This document shows, piece after piece, positions 26,882 through 36,018 of a stretch of 64,000 nt of DNA. The position numbers and the translations under genes are program-made. How positions within the stretch are numbered: position 1 is the stretch's first letter; each line of letters begins with the position of its first letter. The notes below the pieces were generated by a model, which saw only the letters and a list, made by a program, of their open reading frames with translations, was not told the origin of the DNA and made no database searches. The stretch is from Haemophilus parainfluenzae (GTDB lineage Bacteria > Pseudomonadota > Gammaproteobacteria > Enterobacterales > Pasteurellaceae): the NCBI RefSeq assembly GCF_014931275.1, contig NZ_CP063110.1, forward strand, positions 1,100,001 to 1,164,000. Direction: 5' to 3'.

Positions 26882-26919
26882 ATATGATTAAAGAAAATAT
26901 TTTTATTTATGAGGCAATT

Positions 26920-27870
26920 ATGTCCGAATCATCTTCCCTAAAATTCCATCTCGAACTATTACGTTTAATTCCGAAAAACTATTCCATCAGCTCATTAGAA
27001 CTGCGAGAGAAATTGCTTGCATTAGGTATTGAGCGGGATTTGCGCAGTATTCAGCGTGCATTGAATACGTTATGTGAGCAGTTTGAAATTGATTGCAATA
27101 CCAATGATAAACCGTATAGCTATCGTTGGAAACCCGATGCAAAAGGCTTAGATATGCCGATTTTAAACGAACAACAATCGTTGGTGTTGATGTTGGCAAA
27201 GCAATATTTAGCCGGCATTTTACCTGCCAATATTATGCAATCGATGGAGGGGTTCTTTAAACAAGCGGATTACAATCTTGCTTATGAACCGCATAAAAAA
27301 GGCGCTTCAGAATGGCTCAATAAAGTGGCTATTGCACCAACTAGCCAGCCATTATTGCCTGCAAAAATTGATCCTGAAATTTTTAAGCAAATTAGTACCG
27401 CACTTTATCAAAACCGATTTTTGCAAGTGCATTATCGTAGCATCCACGGCAAAGAACATAAGGCTAAAGTTAAACCACTCGCTCTTGTCCAGCAAGGCCC
27501 TAGCAGTTATGTGGTGGCAGAATATGAGCATGGTGATATCTTACATTTAGCCTTGCATCGATTACTTGAAGTGAATGTCAGCACAATGCAATTTGAACGT
27601 CCGAAATTTAATCTAAAAGCTTATGTTGAAAGCCAAAAATTTGGCTTTAGTTCTGGTAGAAAAATTCGTTTAACTTTCCGTATTGATAAAAAAACAGGTG
27701 GCTTTTTGACAGAAACCCCGCTTTCAGCCGATCAAAGCGTAAAAGATTGTGGCACTGAATATGAAATTTCCGCGACCGTGATTGAGAGCGCCATGCTGGA
27801 GTGGTGGATTGCCCATTTTGGTGAAGATTACCAAGAAATTGACCGCACTTATTTAGACAAAAATACCTAA
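26920..27870 (+). CDS. WYL-domain transcriptional regulator
   Basis: About 316 residues. The N-terminal part (about 1-70) is a winged helix-turn-helix (LLRLIPKNYSISSLELREKLLALGIERDLRSIQRALNTL), the rest is a WYL-type ligand-sensing region (LQVHYRSIHGKEHKAKVKPLALVQQGPSSYVVAEYEHGDILHLALHRL) with a WCX-like C-terminal extension. GAGG upstream of ATG 26920 decides the start; an in-frame ATG at 26884 lies inside the terminator tail region. WYL proteins often control defence and DNA-stress genes. It is the first gene of the accessory region, and its stop codon shares a base with the first copy of an inverted repeat found before three units here. Confidence 0.88.
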   Translation: MSESSSLKFHLELLRLIPKNYSISSLELREKLLALGIERDLRSIQRALNTLCEQFEIDCNTNDKPYSYRWKPDAKGLDMPILNEQQSLVLMLAKQYLAGILPANIMQSMEGFFKQADYNLAYEPHKKGASEWLNKVAIAPTSQPLLPAKIDPEIFKQISTALYQNRFLQVHYRSIHGKEHKAKVKPLALVQQGPSSYVVAEYEHGDILHLALHRLLEVNVSTMQFERPKFNLKAYVESQKFGFSSGRKIRLTFRIDKKTGGFLTETPLSADQSVKDCGTEYEISATVIESAMLEWWIAHFGEDYQEIDRTYLDKNT

Positions 27871-27886
27871 CGACATAAATTGTCGC
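27870..27886. repeat. Island inverted repeat, copy 1
   Basis: ACGACA-TAAAT-TGTCGC, 17 bases. It begins on the last base of the WYL gene stop and lies 42 bases before the nucleotidase-like gene. Same 6-5-6 layout as copies at 30695 and 33897. Candidate operator or processing hairpin. Confidence 0.7.
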
Positions 27887-27928
27887 TTCATCTTTTATCA
27901 TTAAGCCATCAACAGAGAGGGCATTAAA

Positions 27929-28819
27929 ATGAAGAAAATTGTTTATATTGATATGGATAATGTGATGGTTGATTTTCCGTCTGGTATTGCAAAATTAGAT
28001 GAGAAAACCAAGCAAGAGTATGAAGGTCGATATGATGAAGTTGAAGGTATTTTCAGCTTAATGGAACCCATGCCAAACGCCATTTCTGCCGTTCATAAAT
28101 TGATGAAGAAATATCATATTTACGCACTTTCTACCGCGCCTTGGCATAATCCATCGGCGTGGAGTGATAAAGTGAAATGGATTCAGCATTATTTCGGCGA
28201 AGAAAAAGGCTCGGCATTATACAAGCGGTTAATTTTATCTCACCATAAAAACCTGAACCAAGGCGATTATTTAATTGATGATCGCACTAAAAATGGGGCA
28301 GATAAATTCGAAGGCAAACACTTACATTTTGGTACTGAACAATTTGCTAACTGGAACTGTGTACTATCTTACTTAGATTGCGGGCCTTTTACACCAAGTG
28401 ATATTTTGCAAGATTGCTTGAAAAAGCCGACCGCACTTGTGCAAGTTGAAAATGAGGAGCAAAGTCGAATCATTGGTGCTTTTGCAGATCGCTATAAATG
28501 GCAAGTGTTTAATTTGTCATGTGTTTATACGGATGAAACAGCAACCGAACAGAAAACGGTCTATTTAATTATCAGCCCTTATCTCAGTGATGAATTTAAA
28601 ATGCGTATTGAAGCAATGTGTGCTCATATTCAAGCCGAATATGATGTGTTATTACGCTCAAAATCACAGCTAAAACAATATTTCCAACGCCTTTCAGAGA
28701 GGCCATTCTTGCATATTGAAAGCTATACTTATCAACCCCTTTATAAAGCAGGGAATATTTTAGGTATGATGGGAAGAGATAGACAGGTTGATGAAATTTT
28801 AGAACAAAAAGGAGCCTGA
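27929..28819 (+). CDS. 5'(3')-deoxyribonucleotidase-like protein with unknown C-terminal half
   Basis: HAD-fold protein, 296 residues. Residues 1-160 resemble the NT5C family: the nucleophile motif DMDNVMVDF (Asp8, Asp10), LSTAPWHNPSAWSDKVKWIQ as motif II, LILSHHKN with the motif III basic residue, and LIDDRTKNG as the acidic motif. Such enzymes remove phosphate from (deoxy)nucleoside monophosphates. Residues about 170-296 match nothing I recognise. Start is preceded by AGAGAGGG. It lies between the WYL regulator and a sirtuin gene that begins 3 bases after its stop, so nucleotide and NAD-linked chemistry are encoded side by side. Confidence 0.8.
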   Translation: MKKIVYIDMDNVMVDFPSGIAKLDEKTKQEYEGRYDEVEGIFSLMEPMPNAISAVHKLMKKYHIYALSTAPWHNPSAWSDKVKWIQHYFGEEKGSALYKRLILSHHKNLNQGDYLIDDRTKNGADKFEGKHLHFGTEQFANWNCVLSYLDCGPFTPSDILQDCLKKPTALVQVENEEQSRIIGAFADRYKWQVFNLSCVYTDETATEQKTVYLIISPYLSDEFKMRIEAMCAHIQAEYDVLLRSKSQLKQYFQRLSERPFLHIESYTYQPLYKAGNILGMMGRDRQVDEILEQKGA

Positions 28820-28822
28820 AAA

Positions 28823-29533
28823 ATGACAGAAAAAAATAAACCAATTTGCGTGGTATTAACGGGCGCTGGAATTAGTGCCGAAAGTGGTATTCCTACTTTT
28901 AGAGCAGAAGATGGCTTGTGGGCAGGGCATAAAGTAGAAGAAGTTTGTACGCCCGAAGCCTTAAAGAAAAACCGTGCAAAAGTATTGGCGTTTTATAATG
29001 AACGACGTCGTAATGCTCAAGCGGCAGAGCCTAATGCAGCACACTTGGCGTTGGTTGAATTGGAAGCGTTTTATGAAGTTCATATAATCACTCAAAATGT
29101 AGATGATTTACATGAGCGAGCGGGAAGTACTAACGTACTCCATTTACATGGAGAATTGAATAAAGCTCGCAGCAGTTTTAATACCGATTACATTGTTCCA
29201 TGTTTGGGTGATCAACTGTTAGAGGATAAGGATAATCACGGTCATCCAATGCGTCCACATATAGTCTTTTTTGGGGAAAATGTACCTATGTTTCCTAAAG
29301 CAGAAAAGTTAGTGAAAAAGGCAGATATTGTGATTGTTATTGGTACTTCATTACAAGTTTATCCAGCTAATGGATTGGTAAATCTCGCTCCATATGGTTC
29401 ACTTATCTATTTGATCGATCCTAATCCAAATACAGGATTTGTCCGTAAGAAAGTGATTGCAATCAAAGAAAAAGCGGGTGAGGGCGTACCGAAAGTGGTC
29501 GCTGAGTTATTGGAGAAAATTAAAAAATCATAG
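28823..29533 (+). CDS. SIR2-family NAD-dependent deacylase lacking the zinc cysteines
   Basis: Sirtuin of 236 residues. The NAD-binding GAGISAESGIPTFR (residues 14-27), TQNVDDLHERAG and the catalytic His in LHLHGEL (His109) are intact, as are VVIGTSLQVYPA and the late DPNP. The usual four zinc-binding cysteines are missing: the stretch after HGEL has a single Cys (IVPCLG). CobB-like deacylases normally have them, though some bacterial classes do not. Expected activity is removal of acyl groups or ADP-ribose transfer with NAD. It follows the nucleotidase-like gene by 3 bases (AAGGAG in that gene's end) and ends before a UUCG-loop terminator. Confidence 0.9.
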   Translation: MTEKNKPICVVLTGAGISAESGIPTFRAEDGLWAGHKVEEVCTPEALKKNRAKVLAFYNERRRNAQAAEPNAAHLALVELEAFYEVHIITQNVDDLHERAGSTNVLHLHGELNKARSSFNTDYIVPCLGDQLLEDKDNHGHPMRPHIVFFGENVPMFPKAEKLVKKADIVIVIGTSLQVYPANGLVNLAPYGSLIYLIDPNPNTGFVRKKVIAIKEKAGEGVPKVVAELLEKIKKS

Positions 29534-29556
29534 AAAAACAACCGCACTTTTTAAAC

Positions 29557-29580
29557 AAATAGCGACTTCGGTCGCTATTT
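29557..29580. terminator. Bidirectional terminator with UUCG tetraloop
   Basis: AAATAGCGAC and GTCGCTATTT form a perfect 10-bp stem closed by TTCG, ending two bases before the stop codon of the convergent RhuM gene. The GCGAC/GTCGC core resembles the island repeats. Confidence 0.85.
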
Positions 29581-29581
29581 A

Positions 29582-30580
29582 TCATTTATTCTCTTGTTTA
29601 AGCATATGCATAATGAGCCTAATAAGCGTTTCTTTTTGTTTCGGATCAGATTCTGCAACTAATAAAGTGAGTGCTGCAAGCCCAGTATCATTGATAACTG
29701 GGTATCCATTATGATCCAACAAACGCCCATTTCTATGTAAGAAATCTACAAATAAAAATGCGCCACTACGTTTATTACCATCTGAAAAAGGATGGTTCTT
29801 GACGACAAAATAAAGTAAATGCGCTGCTTTTGCTTCAATGCTTGGATAAGCAGGTTCACCAAATACACTTTGATCTAAATTGCCTAAAATCGCAGATAAG
29901 CCATTATCTCGTTCACGTCCAAACAGATCACTTGCTTCACCTTTTGCCATCAGCTGTAATTTTAACTCTGCTAGTGCAGAACAGGCTTCGGCATAAGTCG
30001 GTAATGTACCACCTTGCTGTGTTTGTGGTTCAGTAAGTAAACCTTCATCATATTGTTGTAGCCATAAAAAGGTATGCGTATAACGGCTGACAATATCAAC
30101 TAATCCACGACCGCTTTCTAGCGTTAATTCCGATGAATTTGCCGTTTTTTGAATAAGCGCAAGTGCTTGTTCTAATTTGTGAGCATTTTGCTGTAAACGT
30201 TTTTGGTTAATGGTATAGCCTTGAGTCAGATATTCTTTTAAACGTGCAGTTGCCCAAATTCTAAATTTAGTACCTAAAATAGAATTAACTCTATAGCCCA
30301 CAGATATAATTACATCAAGATTATAGTATTCGATTGTTCGATTAATTTGTCTTTTGCCTTCAATTTGAACTGTTGCATTTTTTGCAACAGTTGCTTCTCT
30401 ATTTAACTCGCCATCAGTATAGATATTGCGTAAATGACGTGAAATAACGGACTTATCTCGCCCAAATAAATCAGCCATCTGCTGTAAACTTAGCCAAACG
30501 GTATCATTTTCAAATCTTACTTCCACTTGCGTTGTGCCATCTTGAGCTTGGTAAATTTCAATCGGATTTTGGTTATTCAT
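29582..30580 (-). CDS. RhuM-family protein with C-terminal Fic/Doc domain
   Basis: 332 residues. The N-terminal RhuM part (about 1-190) begins with a DNA-binding-like segment VWLSLQQMADLFGRDKSVISRHLRNIYTDGEL and contains NLDVIISVGYRVNS and FRIWATARLKEYL. The C-terminal domain carries HPFSDGNKRSGAFLFVDFL (His263), which matches the Doc variant of the Fic motif (NKR) rather than the AMP-transferring GNGR type, so a Doc-like kinase/toxin activity is the better guess. No separate antitoxin gene is adjacent. It runs opposite to its neighbours, with a possible -10 TATAAT at 30603-30598. Confidence 0.88.
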   Translation of the reverse strand: MNNQNPIEIYQAQDGTTQVEVRFENDTVWLSLQQMADLFGRDKSVISRHLRNIYTDGELNREATVAKNATVQIEGKRQINRTIEYYNLDVIISVGYRVNSILGTKFRIWATARLKEYLTQGYTINQKRLQQNAHKLEQALALIQKTANSSELTLESGRGLVDIVSRYTHTFLWLQQYDEGLLTEPQTQQGGTLPTYAEACSALAELKLQLMAKGEASDLFGRERDNGLSAILGNLDQSVFGEPAYPSIEAKAAHLLYFVVKNHPFSDGNKRSGAFLFVDFLHRNGRLLDHNGYPVINDTGLAALTLLVAESDPKQKETLIRLIMHMLKQENK

Positions 30581-30694
30581 ATTCTTTTTCCTAATAAATT
30601 ATATGTATATATAAACAGATAAATGTGCATATTGCAATACAGATAATCTTATTTGCAAACAATCTTCTAAAAATAACCGCTTGTAATATTCGCA

Positions 30695-30711
30695 GCGACA
30701 CGAACTGTCGC
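30695..30711. repeat. Island inverted repeat, copy 2
   Basis: GCGACA-CGAAC-TGTCGC, perfect 6-bp arms. It lies in the 225-base gap between the divergent RhuM gene and the FtsK-gamma/sirtuin operon, 94 bases before the operon's first ATG and upstream of its candidate promoter (TTTACA at 30756, 18 bases, TATATA at 30780). Confidence 0.75.
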
Positions 30712-30805
30712 TTCCTTCCATATAATTTTTTCCATAAAAGAGAGATTTTTTACTTTTTACAAGGCTCTTAAGCCCTTTCTATATAAACAACACAGGAGCA
30801 AACTT

Positions 30806-31005
30806 ATGGCAATGAAAGTGACTTTTAAACGCGATCCGCTTTTTGAGGATGTAAAAAATTCGTGCAACAAGAAAAATTTACATCTGGTTCACGGATTCAA
30901 CGCAAATTTAGTTTAGGCTTTAATCGAGCTGCGAGAATTGTAGAACAACTAGAAGAAGCTGGAATTATTTCACCAATGAAAAATGGACAGAGAAAAGTAT
31001 TATGA
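30806..31005 (+). pseudogene. Small FtsK-gamma-type DNA-binding protein, frameshifted
   Basis: From ATG 30806 (AGGAG 8 bases upstream) the frame reads 18 codons ending DPLFEDVKN, then leaves homology and stops after 36 codons. In the -1 frame from 30859 the sequence continues FVQQEKF and [29 protein letters not shown], the winged helix of the FtsK gamma domain that reads chromosome polarity sites. One missing base, or a -1 slip on A AAA AAT (30853-30859), would restore a protein of about 66 residues. The -1 frame stop overlaps the next gene's ATG (ATGA), so coupling works only if that frame is read. It lacks any translocase motor and is not FtsK itself. Confidence 0.75.
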
Positions 31006-31847
31006 AAAATGATTTAAATTATGCAGTGGAACTTATCCATAAGGCTGATGGCATTTTAATTACTGCTGGTGCAGGAATGAGCGTAGATTCAGGTTTGCCG
31101 GATTTTAGAAGTGTAGGCGGGTTTTGGAATGCCTACCCAATGTTTAAAGGCCACAATATCAATTTTGAAGATATTGCGACGCCATTGGCTTATGAAACTC
31201 ATCAAGAGTTAGCTTATTGGTTTTATGGGCATCGTTTGTCGCAATATCGTGCAACAAGTCCGCATGATGGCTACCAGATTTTAAAACGTTGGGCAGAAAG
31301 CAAACCGCATGGTTATTTTGTTTTTACAAGCAATGTGGATGGGCATTTTCAGAAAGCGGGTTTTGAAGAAGGACGCATTTATGAAGTGCATGGCACACTA
31401 GAGCGTTTACAGTGTGCGCATAATTGCCGGGATCTGAGCTGGTCTGCAAAAGAATTTCAACCTGTGGTAGATAATGAAAATTTGCGCTTATTGAGTGAGC
31501 CGCCTCGTTGCCCTTATTGTCAGCGTTTAGCAAGACAAAATGTGCTTATGTTTGACGATTATTTTTACAGCAGTAATTATCAAAATTTAAAACGAAATAA
31601 GCTCGATTTATGGTTAAAAGAAGTGCAAAATCTCGTCGTCATCGAACTGGGTGCGGGAAAAGCCATTCCAACTGTGCGTCGATTTTCTGAACGTACGGCG
31701 AAAGCAAAAAAGGGTGGATTTATCCGTATTAACCCACAAGATGCAGGTGTGCCGAAAATGCACTTTTTAAGTCTAGAAATGAAGGCGTTAGACGCGCTAA
31801 AAGCGATTGATTGCCTTCTAAATCCTTCTCAACAAGCGGTTGAATAA
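31002..31847 (+). CDS. SIR2-family NAD-dependent protein deacylase with zinc motif
   Basis: 281 residues, clearly different from the sirtuin at 28.8 kb. It has [14 protein letters not shown] (about residues 22-35), [14 protein letters not shown], the catalytic His in EVHGTLE (His130), and two Cys pairs (CAHNC from Cys138 and CPYC about 30 residues later) for structural zinc. Expected to use NAD for deacylation or ADP-ribosylation; in several described defence systems SIR2 domains instead consume NAD. It is coupled to the preceding frame by ATGA and overlaps the PP2C gene start by one base (TAATG). Confidence 0.9.
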
Positions 31848-32599
31848 TGGAAAATTTTTGCGAAATTACCTTCTGCCAACAAATTGGCAGCAACAAGCGA
31901 CATAACCAAGATGCCCTTTTTAATGGCGAGGCGGTGTTTCAATATAAACTCAAAACGGCTGAAAAACGTCTTGAAAACCGACCGCACTTTATTGTGGGCG
32001 TGGCAGACGGTATTTCCAATAGTAACCGACCTGAAAAAGCGAGCAAGTTGGCTATGCAATTATTAAGCCAAATGGAAAGCATAAGTCGTCAAACGATCTA
32101 CGATTTACAATCCAGTTTATCAGCAGAATTAGCTGAGGATTATTTTGGCGCAGCAACCACTTTTGTGGCGGCTGAAATTGATCAAATAACCCGTAAAGCC
32201 AAAATTCTCAGCGTAGGAGATAGTCGTGCTTATTTAATTGATGCACAAGGTAAATGGCAACAAATCACCCAAGATCATTCTATTCTGTCTGAATTATTGA
32301 CTGATTTTCCCGATAAAAAAGAAGAAGACTTTGCCACTATTTATAGTGGCGTTTCTTCTTGTTTAGTTGCGGATTATTCGGAATTTCAAGATAAAATTTT
32401 TTATCAAGAAATTGAAATTCAAAAAGGGGAAAGTTTATTACTGTGTTCTGACGGATTAACAGATGGTCTTTCAGAAGAAATGAGAGAAAAGATTTGGAAA
32501 CAATATGATAATGATAAATCTCGATTGACGGTGTGTCGTAAATTAATTGCGAAACAAGGGTTTTATGATGATTTATCAGTTATAATTTGTGCGTTTTGA
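31847..32599 (+). CDS. PP2C-family serine/threonine phosphatase
   Basis: 250 residues with the complete PPM metal and substrate motifs: KRHNQDALF, VGVADGIS (Asp54), VGDSRAYLID, LLCSDGLTDGL and the final DDLSVIICAF. It would remove phosphate from Ser/Thr residues of a partner. No protein kinase gene is nearby, so the partner kinase is either elsewhere or the target is phosphorylated differently. Its first base is the last base of the preceding sirtuin gene; the nuclease gene follows after 18 bases with AAGGAGCC. Confidence 0.9.
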   Translation: MENFCEITFCQQIGSNKRHNQDALFNGEAVFQYKLKTAEKRLENRPHFIVGVADGISNSNRPEKASKLAMQLLSQMESISRQTIYDLQSSLSAELAEDYFGAATTFVAAEIDQITRKAKILSVGDSRAYLIDAQGKWQQITQDHSILSELLTDFPDKKEEDFATIYSGVSSCLVADYSEFQDKIFYQEIEIQKGESLLLCSDGLTDGLSEEMREKIWKQYDNDKSRLTVCRKLIAKQGFYDDLSVIICAF

Positions 32600-32905
32600 T
32601 TAACCTAAGGAGCCTCTATGGCAAATAATATTAACCAAATTGTTGATTCTTTAATTTCTATCAATCAAGTGATAGAAAATTTTAGATTACAACGAGAAAA
32701 AAATGAGTTGTACGATTCTAATCGTTTTAACCCGTTTCAATTTTTACGAACGGATGAAATGGGATTGTCTAAGATTCTTGCATTTTTATTAGATCCAACA
32801 GAAACACATGGGCAAGGTGATTTATTTCTAAATAGTTTTTTAAAATTTATTGGTAAGCACCAATTTCTAGCTTACCAAAAAGTCAATATTTATTGCGAAA
32901 AAACA

Positions 32906-32965
32906 ACTCAAGAAACAGCTCAGGAAACAGTTCAGGAAACAGCTCAAGAAACAATTCAAGAAAAT
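32906..32965 (+). repeat. Five tandem 12-base units in the nuclease gene
   Basis: Units such as GCTCAGGAAACA repeat five times with a few changes and encode (A/V/I)QET repeats just before the catalytic Asp. As 12 is a multiple of three, copy-number change would alter length without breaking the frame. Confidence 0.9.
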
Positions 32966-33662
32966 CGTCGTCATGATATTTTTATTGAAGGTTTATTAGG
33001 CAATAAAATAGCCTGGGTGATTTCTATTGAAAATAAATTGCAAGGTGCGGTTGATCGGCCAAATCAAATGCATGATTATGCTAAAGATCTCAAAAATTAT
33101 GTTTCAGAGTCTTATTTTCTTATTTATCTTCCTATATTTAGTAATAATCCACCAGAAAAATCTATTTCTGAAAAGGACTGGGCTAAATTAATAAGTGATA
33201 AGAAAGCAATGGTATTATCAGTAAGTATGCTTATACAGTGGCTTGACAATACTATAATTATTGCACCTGCAGTAAAACAATTTTGTAATGATTTTAAGAA
33301 GTTTTTAAGTGAGGATATTATGGGAAATACTCAGAATTCAAATGAATTGATTGAATATCTAATTAATAATGATAAGGCATTGTTTTCAGCATTAACTGTG
33401 CTTGAGACAAAGGAAACACTATATGAAAAACTTATGGCTATGTTAGTTGAACAGTTGAAAATTAGGTTTAATCGGTATACTAAATTAATAAATATTAATT
33501 TTGAATGTGGAGAGGATGAGAGTTTTAATAAAAAAGGATATGGGTTGTATATAGGTAATGATGATTTTGGCGTTTGTATTTACTTTAATAAAAAAGGGCT
33601 TGGTGACGCTTACTATGGTATTTATGCTAATCATGATAATTTATTTAATAATATACTTAATG

Positions 33663-33673
33663 TTTTTTTTTTT
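33663..33673 (+). repeat. Homopolymer of 11 T inside the nuclease gene
   Basis: Eleven T in a row at the point where the coding frame shifts. Twelve (or nine) would join the two frames. Confidence 0.9.
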
Positions 33674-33896
33674 CAGAATTTATTAAAGAGAATGACTTTT
33701 ATGACTCAGACAAGGATGACAATATGCCATTATGGAAATGGCTAGAAGATGAATATGAAGTATGGGATGCGGCAGTTCTTAGTAAGATTCCTAGTGGCGA
33801 GCTAGCGAATTATATTTTCGAATTATGGAAACCATTACTGGAGATCATCTCAAATAACTTAGATAAAATAAAAGAGCTAAAAATGGAAAATTCATA

Positions 33897-33913
33897 GCGA
33901 CATCTTTTGTCGC
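33897..33913. repeat. Island inverted repeat, copy 3
   Basis: GCGACA-TCTTT-TGTCGC, perfect 6-bp arms. Starts on the last base of the nuclease stop codon and lies 47 bases before the AAA ATPase gene. Confidence 0.75.
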
Positions 33914-33924
33914 ACCCCTCACTA

Positions 33925-33960
33925 AAATACTCCTTACTAACCCAGTAAGGAGTATTTTTT
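33925..33960 (+). promoter_or_regulatory. Hairpin that buries the ribosome site of the AAA gene
   Basis: AAATACTCCTTACT (33925-33938) pairs perfectly over 14 bp with AGTAAGGAGTATTT (33944-33957); loop AACCC; six T follow up to the base before ATG 33961. It looks like an intrinsic terminator, but its 3' arm contains the only Shine-Dalgarno (AAGGAG, 33947-33952, 8 bases before ATG). It should therefore block transcription into, or translation of, the ATPase gene unless opened. Confidence 0.85.
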
Positions 33961-36018
33961 ATGTCCGAATATAAATTAAATCCACCAACAGTGTCTTCTT
34001 ATACTGAAAATATGATGCTCAAAATTTTATTTGAGCATAAAGGTTTTTCCGAAGTATTTCGGGAGAGTAGTTGGCGAAACGATGAAATTGCTAGTGCGTT
34101 TGGACTGCCAGAAGAATTAGAGAATGATAAAAATTTACGCGTAGTTGCTCGTCGGCTTTTAAAAGAGCGTTATAAAACACTCCAAAAATCCACCGCACTT
34201 TTATCAGATTTATGGAAACAAGCTTATGAAAATTTGGCAAGTTTGGCGGAATTTTTGCAGCTGAATCCCGTTGAACAGGAACTTCTCCGCTTTGCCATGC
34301 ACTTACGTAGTGAAGGACCTATGCAAGATTTGTTTAAGTGCTTGCCGAAATCGGATTTGCAAAGAACGGCTGCGATCATGGCGGATTTACTGAAACAGCC
34401 GAAAAATGAGATTTTGTCCGCCTTAAAGAAAGGTAGTAAACTCGATGCTTATGGGCTAATTGATCGGAATTATCGCCTAGATGGTGTGCAAGATTATTTA
34501 GCGTGGGGCGAAACTTTAGATTTTGACGAATTTGTAACACAGCCTCTAAATGAATATGCGCTATTGAAATCTTGTACAGAAATACCTCAAGTGCCAAGTT
34601 TGCAACTAGATGATTTTGTACATATTGCTAGCATGAAAGAGATGATGTTGACTTATTTGCAACAGGCACTAAAACATCATCAGAAAGGTGTGAATCTTTT
34701 AATTTATGGTGTGCCCGGCACCGGTAAAACTGAATTTGCCGGGTTGCTTGCTCAGACATTAGGGATTTCGGCGTATAACATTACTTACATGGATTCTGAC
34801 GGTGATGTTGTGAAGGCAGAGCAACGCTTGAATTACAGTCGTCTTGCTCAAACGTTATTGAAAGGCAAGCAGGCACTTTTAATTTTTGATGAAATTGAAG
34901 ATGTGTTTAACGGTTCGCTCATGGAGTGTTCTGTTGCACAAAAAAATAAAGCATGGACAAATCAATTGCTGGAGAATAATAACGTGCCGATAATTTGGTT
35001 GTCCAATTCGGTACACAGCATAGATTCAGCTTTTTTACGTCGCTTTGATTTTGTGTTTGAAATGCCAGATTTACCGTTAAAAAATAAATCGGCGTTAATT
35101 TCGCAGCTGGCAGGCGGTAAATTAACGGCGGAATACGTGCAGCATTTTGCCAAAGTGCGGTCGCTTTCGCCGGCGATTTTAACGCGCGTGTTCAATGTAG
35201 CAAATGCGGTTGATAACGGTAAAAAAGCTTTTTCTGAGGTCTTGCTGACGCTATTTAATGAAACTTTACAGGCACAAGGTAAAAAGAAAATTGAGCCGTT
35301 GGTGGAAAGTAAACTGAGTTATCAGCTTGAGTGGGTTTCCTGCAATGAAAATATTCATAAAATCAGTGAAGGATTAATGCGAACCAAGAAAGGCAGAATT
35401 TGCTGTTATGGCCCACCTGGCACAGGGAAAACTGCTTGGGCAGCTTGGCTTGCCGAGCAGTTAGATATGCCGTTGTTGCTTTGCAAAGGGTCTGATTTGC
35501 TCGATCCTTATGTCGGCGGAACAGAACAAAAAATTGCGGAGGCATTTGAATCGGCGAAGCGTGATAATTGTTTGCTAGTGCTGGACGAAGTGGATACCTT
35601 CCTGTTTTCACGCGATGGTGCAGAACGTAGTTGGGAGCGTTCACAAGTCAATGAAATGCTGACACAAATTGAACGCTTTGAGGGTTTAATGGTGGTGTCA
35701 ACAAATTTAATTGAGGTACTCGATCCTGCAGCCTTACGCCGTTTTGATTTGAAACTGAAGTTTGATTATTTAACGCTGCCACAACGTTTAGATTTTGCTA
35801 AACAACAAGCGGAAATTTTAGGGTTGCCGTTGTTATCGGAAGAGGATTTAAGTCAGATTGAATCGCTTAATCTGCTGACGCCTGGAGATTTTGCCGCAGT
35901 AGCTCGCCGCCACCAGTTTTCTCCTTTTCAAAAGGTGCAAGATTGGCTGAGCGCGTTACAAGGTGAGTGTGAAGTGAAACCAGCATTTTCTGCAACGACA
36001 AGGCGGATAGGGTTCTAA
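33961..36018 (+). CDS. Tandem AAA+ ATPase
   Basis: 685 residues. An all-helical N-terminal region (about 1-230) is followed by two AAA+ modules: module 1 with Walker A GVPGTGKTEFAG (from residue 250) and Walker B ALLIFDEIEDVF; module 2 with Walker A GPPGTGKTAWAAW (from about 483), Walker B LLVLDEVDTFLF and the arginine-finger-like ALRRFDLKLKF. The LRRFDF sequence in module 1 is also present. It resembles classic AAA proteins that remodel partners; no protease or helicase domain is seen. Its start is under the hairpin at 33925. It is the last gene of the accessory cluster and ends at a paired uptake-signal terminator. Confidence 0.9.
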   Translation: MSEYKLNPPTVSSYTENMMLKILFEHKGFSEVFRESSWRNDEIASAFGLPEELENDKNLRVVARRLLKERYKTLQKSTALLSDLWKQAYENLASLAEFLQLNPVEQELLRFAMHLRSEGPMQDLFKCLPKSDLQRTAAIMADLLKQPKNEILSALKKGSKLDAYGLIDRNYRLDGVQDYLAWGETLDFDEFVTQPLNEYALLKSCTEIPQVPSLQLDDFVHIASMKEMMLTYLQQALKHHQKGVNLLIYGVPGTGKTEFAGLLAQTLGISAYNITYMDSDGDVVKAEQRLNYSRLAQTLLKGKQALLIFDEIEDVFNGSLMECSVAQKNKAWTNQLLENNNVPIIWLSNSVHSIDSAFLRRFDFVFEMPDLPLKNKSALISQLAGGKLTAEYVQHFAKVRSLSPAILTRVFNVANAVDNGKKAFSEVLLTLFNETLQAQGKKKIEPLVESKLSYQLEWVSCNENIHKISEGLMRTKKGRICCYGPPGTGKTAWAAWLAEQLDMPLLLCKGSDLLDPYVGGTEQKIAEAFESAKRDNCLLVLDEVDTFLFSRDGAERSWERSQVNEMLTQIERFEGLMVVSTNLIEVLDPAALRRFDLKLKFDYLTLPQRLDFAKQQAEILGLPLLSEEDLSQIESLNLLTPGDFAAVARRHQFSPFQKVQDWLSALQGECEVKPAFSATTRRIGF

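Follow-up and report, generated by a model that had tools for sequence, protein, structure and literature searches.

What holds together nine neighbouring genes that pair a transcriptional regulator with a nucleotidase, two sirtuins, a phosphatase, a nuclease and a tandem AAA+ ATPase? The question is raised by positions 26920 to 36018 of a 64,000-nucleotide stretch of Haemophilus parainfluenzae DNA (contig NZ_CP063110.1; hereafter the window), which encode, in order, a WYL-domain regulator, an NT5C-like nucleotidase, a sirtuin (SIR2a), a RhuM-Fic/Doc protein, a small FtsK-gamma protein, a second sirtuin (SIR2b), a PP2C-type phosphatase, a PDDEXK_4 nuclease and a Cdc48-like ATPase (AAA2). As judged from sequence, comparison between genomes shows an operator shared by island genes and the swapping of the nuclease, and we infer in addition that a core of SIR2b, PP2C and AAA2 governs this nuclease beyond sharing its switch. 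The reading that we favour, with a probability of roughly 0.45, is that of a WYL-controlled, modular anti-phage regulon, in which a plug-in nuclease is handled by the conserved sirtuin/PP2C/unfoldase core.

The shared switch came to light when the AAA2 leader was folded in 24 loci, which uncovered a recurring palindrome, TGCGACA-N5-TGTCGCA, that covers the −35 region and is followed 8 nt downstream by a −10 box, TAWAWT. Counting palindromes with up to three mismatches, a strict −10 box was present at offset 8 in 43 of the 94 sites that have a start codon within 130 nt, and at offsets 7 and 9 in two each; at the 108 sites without a nearby start codon, it was present at offset 8 in six. In the window there are three exact copies of the composite CGACA-N5-TGTCG-N10-TANNNT, at the promoters of NT5C, the FtsK-gamma operon and AAA2; the number expected from shuffled sequence is 0.00. 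If one mismatch in the two five-base cores is tolerated, 39 loci (781 kb) contain 89 composite sites, of which 74 lie no more than 130 nt from a start codon and 15 have none at that distance. The genes behind these 74 are AAA2 (26), FtsK-gamma (14), NT5C (12), SIR2b (7), PP2C (4), OGFr_N (3), LRR, PDDEXK and DUF262 (one each) and others (5), and the operator precedes AAA2 in 26 of the 28 mapped AAA2 loci. The real sequence holds 114 palindromes and 36 composites (both strands), compared with 6, 0 and 0 palindromes and not a single composite in Markov-resampled controls, and five island-less loci (90 kb) contained no composite site. The palindrome alone numbers 0 to 6 sites per genome, with five of seven perfect matches, among the matches listed, located in islands. 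Thirty palindrome loci were fetched; five of them are in islands, four of these with a correctly spaced −10 box before an open reading frame (ORF), and the other 25 have no −10 box at that distance. Outside Pasteurellaceae, the exact composite was found in Spiribacter (L064 and L066, one place) and on a Diaphorobacter plasmid (L170), not before AAA2, and 30 matches of the operator pattern in viral contigs were taken as background.

The likely binder of this operator is the WYL protein, because the operator geometry matches that of BrxR operators. In BREX islands, the WYL repressor BrxR binds inverted repeats of 10–11 bp with a 5-bp spacer (PMC9122601), and in Acinetobacter its operator overlaps the −35 element (PMC9122589); here, too, an inverted repeat with a 5-bp spacer lies over the −35 region of a promoter, but its half-sites are 7 bp long instead of 10–11 bp. 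A WYL gene or fragment is found in 25 of the 28 mapped AAA2 loci (two of them fragments, two on neighbouring stretches), and the N-terminal stretch RDLRSIQRAL is conserved in ten sequences of island homologues, across genera having the operator. In the presumed helix-turn-helix–WYL–WCX architecture, the WYL domain is clear, WCX falls below the cut-off and the helix-turn-helix is supported by conservation only. The FtsK-gamma protein was considered as the binder too, and is the less likely one, because islands without it retain the operator. Of 26 FtsK_gamma domains outside chromosomal FtsK, as sorted by hand, 16 have SIR2b or AAA2 no farther than 10 kb away and three more are near PP2C. Overall, the genes of the block probably form a single WYL regulon.

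The AAA2 leader itself forms a 15-bp hairpin in the window (33924–33958; z −9.4), and the leader of the other AAA2 allele (L036:12080–12182) folds into a strong hairpin whose sequence is unrelated (z −10.9). It is possible that these hairpins are attenuators; several other genera have an AAA2 leader without such a folding excess, and no Rfam match was obtained.

What is exchanged under this switch is the gene between PP2C and AAA2. At the art–cstA site, this slot is occupied by PDDEXK_4 (window and genome G009), a GmrSD enzyme (G005), an Mrr_cat protein (G003), a different GmrSD_N (G001; a fragment in G006) or a GmrSD_N pair (G004), with the PP2C beside the exchanged genes still 91–96% identical. 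DNA identity to the window breaks off at 32577–32590, within the last bases of PP2C, in G001, G003 and G005, and returns at 33889–33894, just before AAA2, in G003 and G005; in carriers of the other AAA2 allele, it returns at 34403–34489, inside AAA2. On these alignments the boundaries of the swap are sharp, at the PP2C end and just before AAA2. Islands elsewhere contain PDDEXK_4 (G017, G026, G068, G081, G085, G088, G089, G108, G116), GmrSD types (G026, G031, G085, G087, G089, G104, G117, G123, G130, G135, G140, G141, G144, G148), Mrr_cat (G026, G101, G116, G129), McrB plus McrC (G028) or a NOV_C protein (G142). Pfam classes the slot genes scanned as restriction-type, and a gene of this kind is present in the island of 23 of the 25 AAA2-positive genomes, with none recognised in G099 and G062 unmapped. 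Family-wide, SIR2b or AAA2 is no more than 10 kb away from 27 of 94 GmrSD_N, 10 of 22 PDDEXK_4 and 4 of 20 Mrr_cat genes (the last counted by hand); this neighbourhood makes up about 0.3% of the sequence if genome size is taken as 2.25 Mb. In the type I methylase control, none was seen by eye within 10 kb of SIR2b or AAA2 among the matches listed, the nearest lying about 29 kb away. A PADLOC scan of ten slot and neighbour proteins matched PDDEXK_4 and GmrSD proteins to HEC-05, HEC-06 or PDC-S26, gave no match for Mrr and McrC, and matched McrB weakly.

The core genes travel together as well. Across one set of 121 Pasteurellaceae genomes, SIR2b was found in 27, AAA2 in 25 and PP2C in 31; SIR2b and PP2C occur jointly in 26 genomes (Fisher p = 2e-20), SIR2b and AAA2 in 21 (2e-14) and PP2C and AAA2 in 22 (5e-14), all three p values being uncorrected for shared descent. 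SIR2b and PP2C are at most 200 bp apart in 20 of the 26 genomes and never more than 3.4 kb apart. For the 20 SIR2b–AAA2 pairs on a single contig, the spacing is below 7 kb in 19 and reaches 38 kb in G006, where genes that look phage-like by eye fill the intervening stretch; in G099, the two genes are on separate contigs. Other genera have the same gene set at other sites and in shuffled order, so that the association does not stem from descent of a single fixed block. A preliminary description of the locus, made from the window alone, had proposed to search for this neighbourhood in Pasteurellaceae and beyond, and both co-occurrence and spacing indicate an association of the genes beyond chance.

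The same description had viewed the genes as untypical of a core chromosome. This holds for most of them, which are accessory and patchy, but fails for SIR2a: the block is missing from five of the 11 congeners, all of which read artM–SIR2a–znR–cstA, indicating that SIR2a is resident at the site. The island therefore consists of WYL and NT5C before SIR2a, and of RhuM-Fic, FtsK-gamma, SIR2b, PP2C, the nuclease and AAA2 after it. Island-less G010 retains a RhuM-Fic remnant, which suggests that the island was lost there. AAA2 is present in six of 11 genomes of the genus, and a full-length relative in nine of the 61 genomes of our first sample, one of them split into two frames; the closest genome compared, G001, has 39% of sampled words in common with the window. 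Absence from five congeners, shuffled order at other sites and in other genera, and exchange of the nuclease for restriction-type genes all support the earlier view of an accessory conflict island, and we found neither a lack of conserved adjacency nor presence in all strains. We also considered the island as a single mobile element and rejected this, since SIR2b relatives were unconfirmed in viral contigs and none was found in phage records. One unannotated phage record holds an AAA2 relative (97% of length, 35%), and phage-like genes, judged by eye, separate the slot gene from AAA2 in G006 and two pieces of SIR2b from each other in G017 (L034, L165, L037).

Features of the block, in window coordinates, with the basis of each assignment
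Feature	Position	Strand	Basis and remarks
WYL-domain regulator (WYL, WCX-like end), putative operator binder	26920..27870	+	Pfam WYL E=3e-11; WCX below cut-off
Operator-promoter copy 1, before NT5C	27871..27901	+	CGACA-N5-TGTCG-N10-TANNNT match
NT5C, HAD-fold 5'(3')-deoxyribonucleotidase-like, extra C-terminal half	27929..28819	+	Pfam PF06941 E=3e-11; relatives
SIR2a, CobB-like sirtuin, resident at the site	28823..29533	+	Pfam; present without island in congeners
RhuM-Fic/Doc protein	29582..30580	-	Pfam; PADLOC candidate PDC-S23; remnant in G010
Operator-promoter copy 2, before FtsK-gamma/SIR2b/PP2C/nuclease	30696..30726	+	Composite pattern match
Small FtsK-gamma winged-helix protein, frame broken in window	30806..31005	+	Pfam; intact 66 aa in relatives
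SIR2b, second sirtuin	31002..31847	+	Pfam; catalytic His conserved
PP2C-type protein phosphatase	31847..32599	+	Pfam; metal-binding Asp conserved
PDDEXK_4 nuclease, swappable slot, frame broken near 3' end	32618..33898	+	Pfam; PADLOC candidate PDC-S26
Operator-promoter copy 3, before AAA; near right-hand boundary of swapped stretch	33898..33928	+	Composite pattern match
15-bp perfect hairpin, T run ending at AAA start codon	33924..33958	+	RNA folding; likely ribosome site in 3' arm
Tandem AAA+ ATPase (AAA2), Cdc48/Rix7-like double module, helical N-domain	33961..36018	+	Pfam; predicted structure

All nine genes were found where they had been placed, by ORF listing and Pfam, and the described linkage on the plus strand was reproduced: FtsK-gamma, SIR2b and PP2C overlap, 18 nt separate PP2C from the nuclease gene, and about 60 nt separate the nuclease frame from AAA2. 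The nine proteins were scanned against Pfam, NCBIfam and PADLOC, with the best 25 matches per protein considered. The WYL ORF has an additional in-frame ATG at 26884. The RhuM-Fic gene is divergent from the operator upstream of FtsK-gamma, and its product matches PADLOC candidate PDC-S23 with E=3e-146. The GC content falls to 29.8% at 33001–34000, the stretch holding the end of the nuclease gene, and this gene contains four overlapping copies of a tandem repeat with a 12-bp period at 32901–32963. In the window, the FtsK-gamma domain lies on a 47-aa frame only (30862–31005), with the 5' part in another frame; the nuclease frame stops at 33745, its C-terminal part running on in another frame to about 33898, and the gene is intact in the relative G009 (447 aa). 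These two frame breaks may be real or may be sequencing errors. The uptake signal AAGTGCGGT has 45 copies in the window, six of them in island genes (WYL 2, NT5C 1, PP2C 1, AAA2 2). That several genes carry such signals and the nuclease gene none is thus correct, as previously described, but SIR2a, SIR2b, RhuM-Fic and FtsK-gamma have none either.

Two further kinds of protein recur in the islands. One is a bacterial OGFr_N-domain protein (PF04664; L033:11924–12418 and other genera), in some cases with its own operator copy; another is a hexapeptide-repeat, YdcK-like family (L126, L127, L131, L134, L139, L148; one member scanned), of which some members are preceded by the operator. Small island proteins at L035:17367–17999, L143:8180–9016 and L146:6794–7594 resemble DNA glycosylases by eye only, that of L143 without a Pfam match.

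The proteins of the core offer clues to what it might do. The predicted structure of AAA2 matches p97, Rix7 and NVL across both AAA modules, which are in the Cdc48 arrangement, but AAA2 may differ from Cdc48/p97, Rix7 and NVL in its N-domain: residues 1–200 are mostly helical in the whole-protein model, and no other part of the protein varies as much. SIR2b aligns over nearly its whole length, including a C-terminal ELGxGxxxPxVxR stretch, with 5a3a and 8rsn, which we take to be SirTM (class M) sirtuins. It differs from these in keeping the catalytic histidine, H130, which is invariant in 13 of 13 SIR2b sequences and is replaced by Q at the aligned position of 8rsn, and no macrodomain was found among the nine proteins. 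PP2C likewise retains its catalytic residues, including the metal-binding Asp.

Relatives of AAA2 (28–37%) are also found on plasmids, in 17 records; all six that were opened have a WYL gene within 8 kb, and McrBC-like, RecB-like, PD-(D/E)XK, RtcB or BREX genes lie near individual ones. We took DUF2357 as McrC-like. On a betaproteobacterial plasmid of Sphaerotilus, the order is WYL, AAA2, sirtuin, DUF4804, dual-specificity phosphatase, two hypotheticals, MoxR, VWA-like, hypothetical and DUF262, adjoining BREX-2 genes; the sirtuin shares 44% identity with SIR2b (239 bits) and resembles SIR2a only distantly (53 bits). In a Moraxella metagenome-assembled genome, WYL, two GmrSD genes and AAA2 follow one another consecutively. 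A DNA-level search of E. coli genomes gave no SIR2b match. The AAA2 relatives of Wohlfahrtiimonas (L054–L057, L059) have a conserved, different neighbourhood without a WYL or sirtuin match to the seeds used.

Based on these results, we propose that a BrxR-type WYL repressor would sit on the palindrome overlapping the −35 region of each of three predicted transcription units, namely NT5C, FtsK-gamma/SIR2b/PP2C/nuclease and AAA2, and would hold expression of the set down, or prevent it, until an infection-induced signal lifts this block. The attacker would be the exchangeable restriction-type nuclease, possibly aimed at foreign or modified DNA. SIR2b and PP2C could strip acyl or ADP-ribosyl groups and phosphate groups, respectively, serving whichever nuclease is plugged in, and the Cdc48-like ATPase might dismantle complexes containing the nuclease, or the protein targets of these complexes; the invader's DNA would then be open to cutting, while the host's own would be cleared of it. 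Since modules bring their own operator copy, a swapped-in module would at once be under the resident regulator. Going one step further, and more tentatively, the block could represent a new restriction system, with a post-translational licensing core under a repeated WYL operator into which unrelated nucleases are plugged and made safe for the host, the evolution of defence then being an exchange of warheads on an unchanging chassis that regulates itself.

Several observations weigh against our favoured reading. The core is not always complete, as four of 25 AAA2 genomes lack SIR2b and six of 27 SIR2b genomes lack AAA2; SIR2b relatives on plasmids adjoin AAA2 in one of seven records opened (11 matched, one record being cut at its start), and SIR2b is near AAA2 in one of five other genomes outside Pasteurellaceae. 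The palindrome without its −10 box (at most one mismatch) has 109 sites in 68 of the 121 genomes, compared with 23 for the reversed control, and no copy of the operator was seen upstream of 20 AAA2 homologues from other families, three of which have other palindromes. Similarity of the WYL protein to solved WYL proteins is weak (PafBC best, E=0.001; 7qfz, E=0.08), and FtsK-gamma and the nuclease, two genes of the block, are frame-broken in the window. Finally, 67 of 94 GmrSD and 12 of 22 PDDEXK_4 genes lie away from the island, and the idea that the type of AAA2 N-domain is tied to that of the nuclease was dropped, because the two do not track each other in eight Haemophilus-type islands.

In an alternative explanation, the site merely collects weapons: the nuclease, AAA2, sirtuin/PP2C, NT5C and RhuM-Fic would act independently and share only the WYL protein and its operator. 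That modules bear their own operator copies, that gene order and membership vary, that restriction-type genes are frequent outside the island and that PADLOC has defence candidates matching the RhuM-Fic, PDDEXK_4 and GmrSD proteins would all be expected from it; what it does not account for is that SIR2b and PP2C are nearly inseparable (26 of 27), forming one predicted operon with the slot in the genus, and that AAA2, a SIR2b-type sirtuin and a phosphatase recur together in the distant betaproteobacterial island. We rate independent weapons under one switch as somewhat less likely than the favoured reading, but as a strong rival. A different division of labour appears improbable to us: phage kinases, acyltransferases or ADP-ribosyltransferases would modify proteins of the host, the sirtuins, PP2C, NT5C and the unfoldase would reverse this, and the nuclease would serve as a second line. 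It draws on the retained catalytic residues of SIR2b and PP2C and on the Pfam matches listed, which include no kinase or ADP-ribosyltransferase, RhuM-Fic being a possible AMP- or phosphate-transferring enzyme. Sirtuins are not known mainly as removers of ADP-ribose from proteins, which speaks against such an eraser function. The kinds of genes fit the proposal of systems centred on ADP-ribosylglycohydrolase (ARG), predicted to act against viral ADP-ribosylation and comprising a WYL regulator, a HAD 5'-nucleotidase, variable restriction endonucleases and chaperones (PMC9503650, section 3.8), but the defining glycohydrolase is not among the Pfam matches listed, and the proposal was built on neighbourhoods without sirtuins.

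Pasteurellaceae are naturally competent, and the uptake signals occur in the island at about the density of the window, as one would expect if it served stress responses or DNA uptake without an anti-phage role, for instance by controlling DNA acquired in natural transformation. Patchy presence, swapping of restriction-type nucleases and the BrxR-type operator geometry, the usual marks of defence loci, make this very improbable. If instead the modular anti-phage regulon is the correct interpretation, type IV-like nucleases could be exchanged between strains without killing the host, with control coming from a fixed chassis and a portable operator. The bearing of NAD-dependent deacylation, dephosphorylation and an unfoldase on restriction would thus become testable, and the operator with its fixed −10 distance offers a simple DNA handle for finding further regulon members in Pasteurellaceae.

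How does this block compare with systems already described? WYL-controlled defence islands, and type IV enzymes within them, are already known. Islands with BrxR, BREX and the GmrSD enzyme BrxU resemble the present one in having a WYL regulator and a type IV restriction gene; the window block differs from BREX islands by its sirtuin/PP2C/Cdc48-like core, three operator copies and swappable nuclease slot, and has no PglZ, PglX or BrxC among the Pfam, NCBIfam and PADLOC matches listed. ARG-centred systems share the WYL regulator, the HAD 5'-nucleotidase and variable restriction nucleases around a conserved core (PMC9503650), but here there are two sirtuins, PP2C and a Cdc48-like ATPase, and an ADP-ribosylglycohydrolase domain is not among the Pfam matches listed. 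TerY-P triads with CoCoNuT, which are McrBC-related, are alike in placing a PP2C-like phosphatase beside a type IV restriction machine (PMC11090510); they differ from the block, for whose nine proteins the Pfam matches listed include no kinase and no VWA domain. With respect to IetAS, AAA2 scores 112.7 bits against a cut-off of 510 bits for IetA, and no protease family is among the matches listed for the nine proteins. In sister islands, the slot is filled by the type IV enzymes GmrSD, McrBC and Mrr; in the window it holds PDDEXK_4. In agreement with the preliminary description, which knew of no system with this set, the open PubMed Central papers searched yielded none, the consulted passages of PMC9503650, PMC7159879, PMC12839542, PMC11090510, PMC9122601 and PMC9122589 included. 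As far as these papers go, what is new here is the chassis, the sirtuin/PP2C/Cdc48-like core, together with the operator that is repeated across it.

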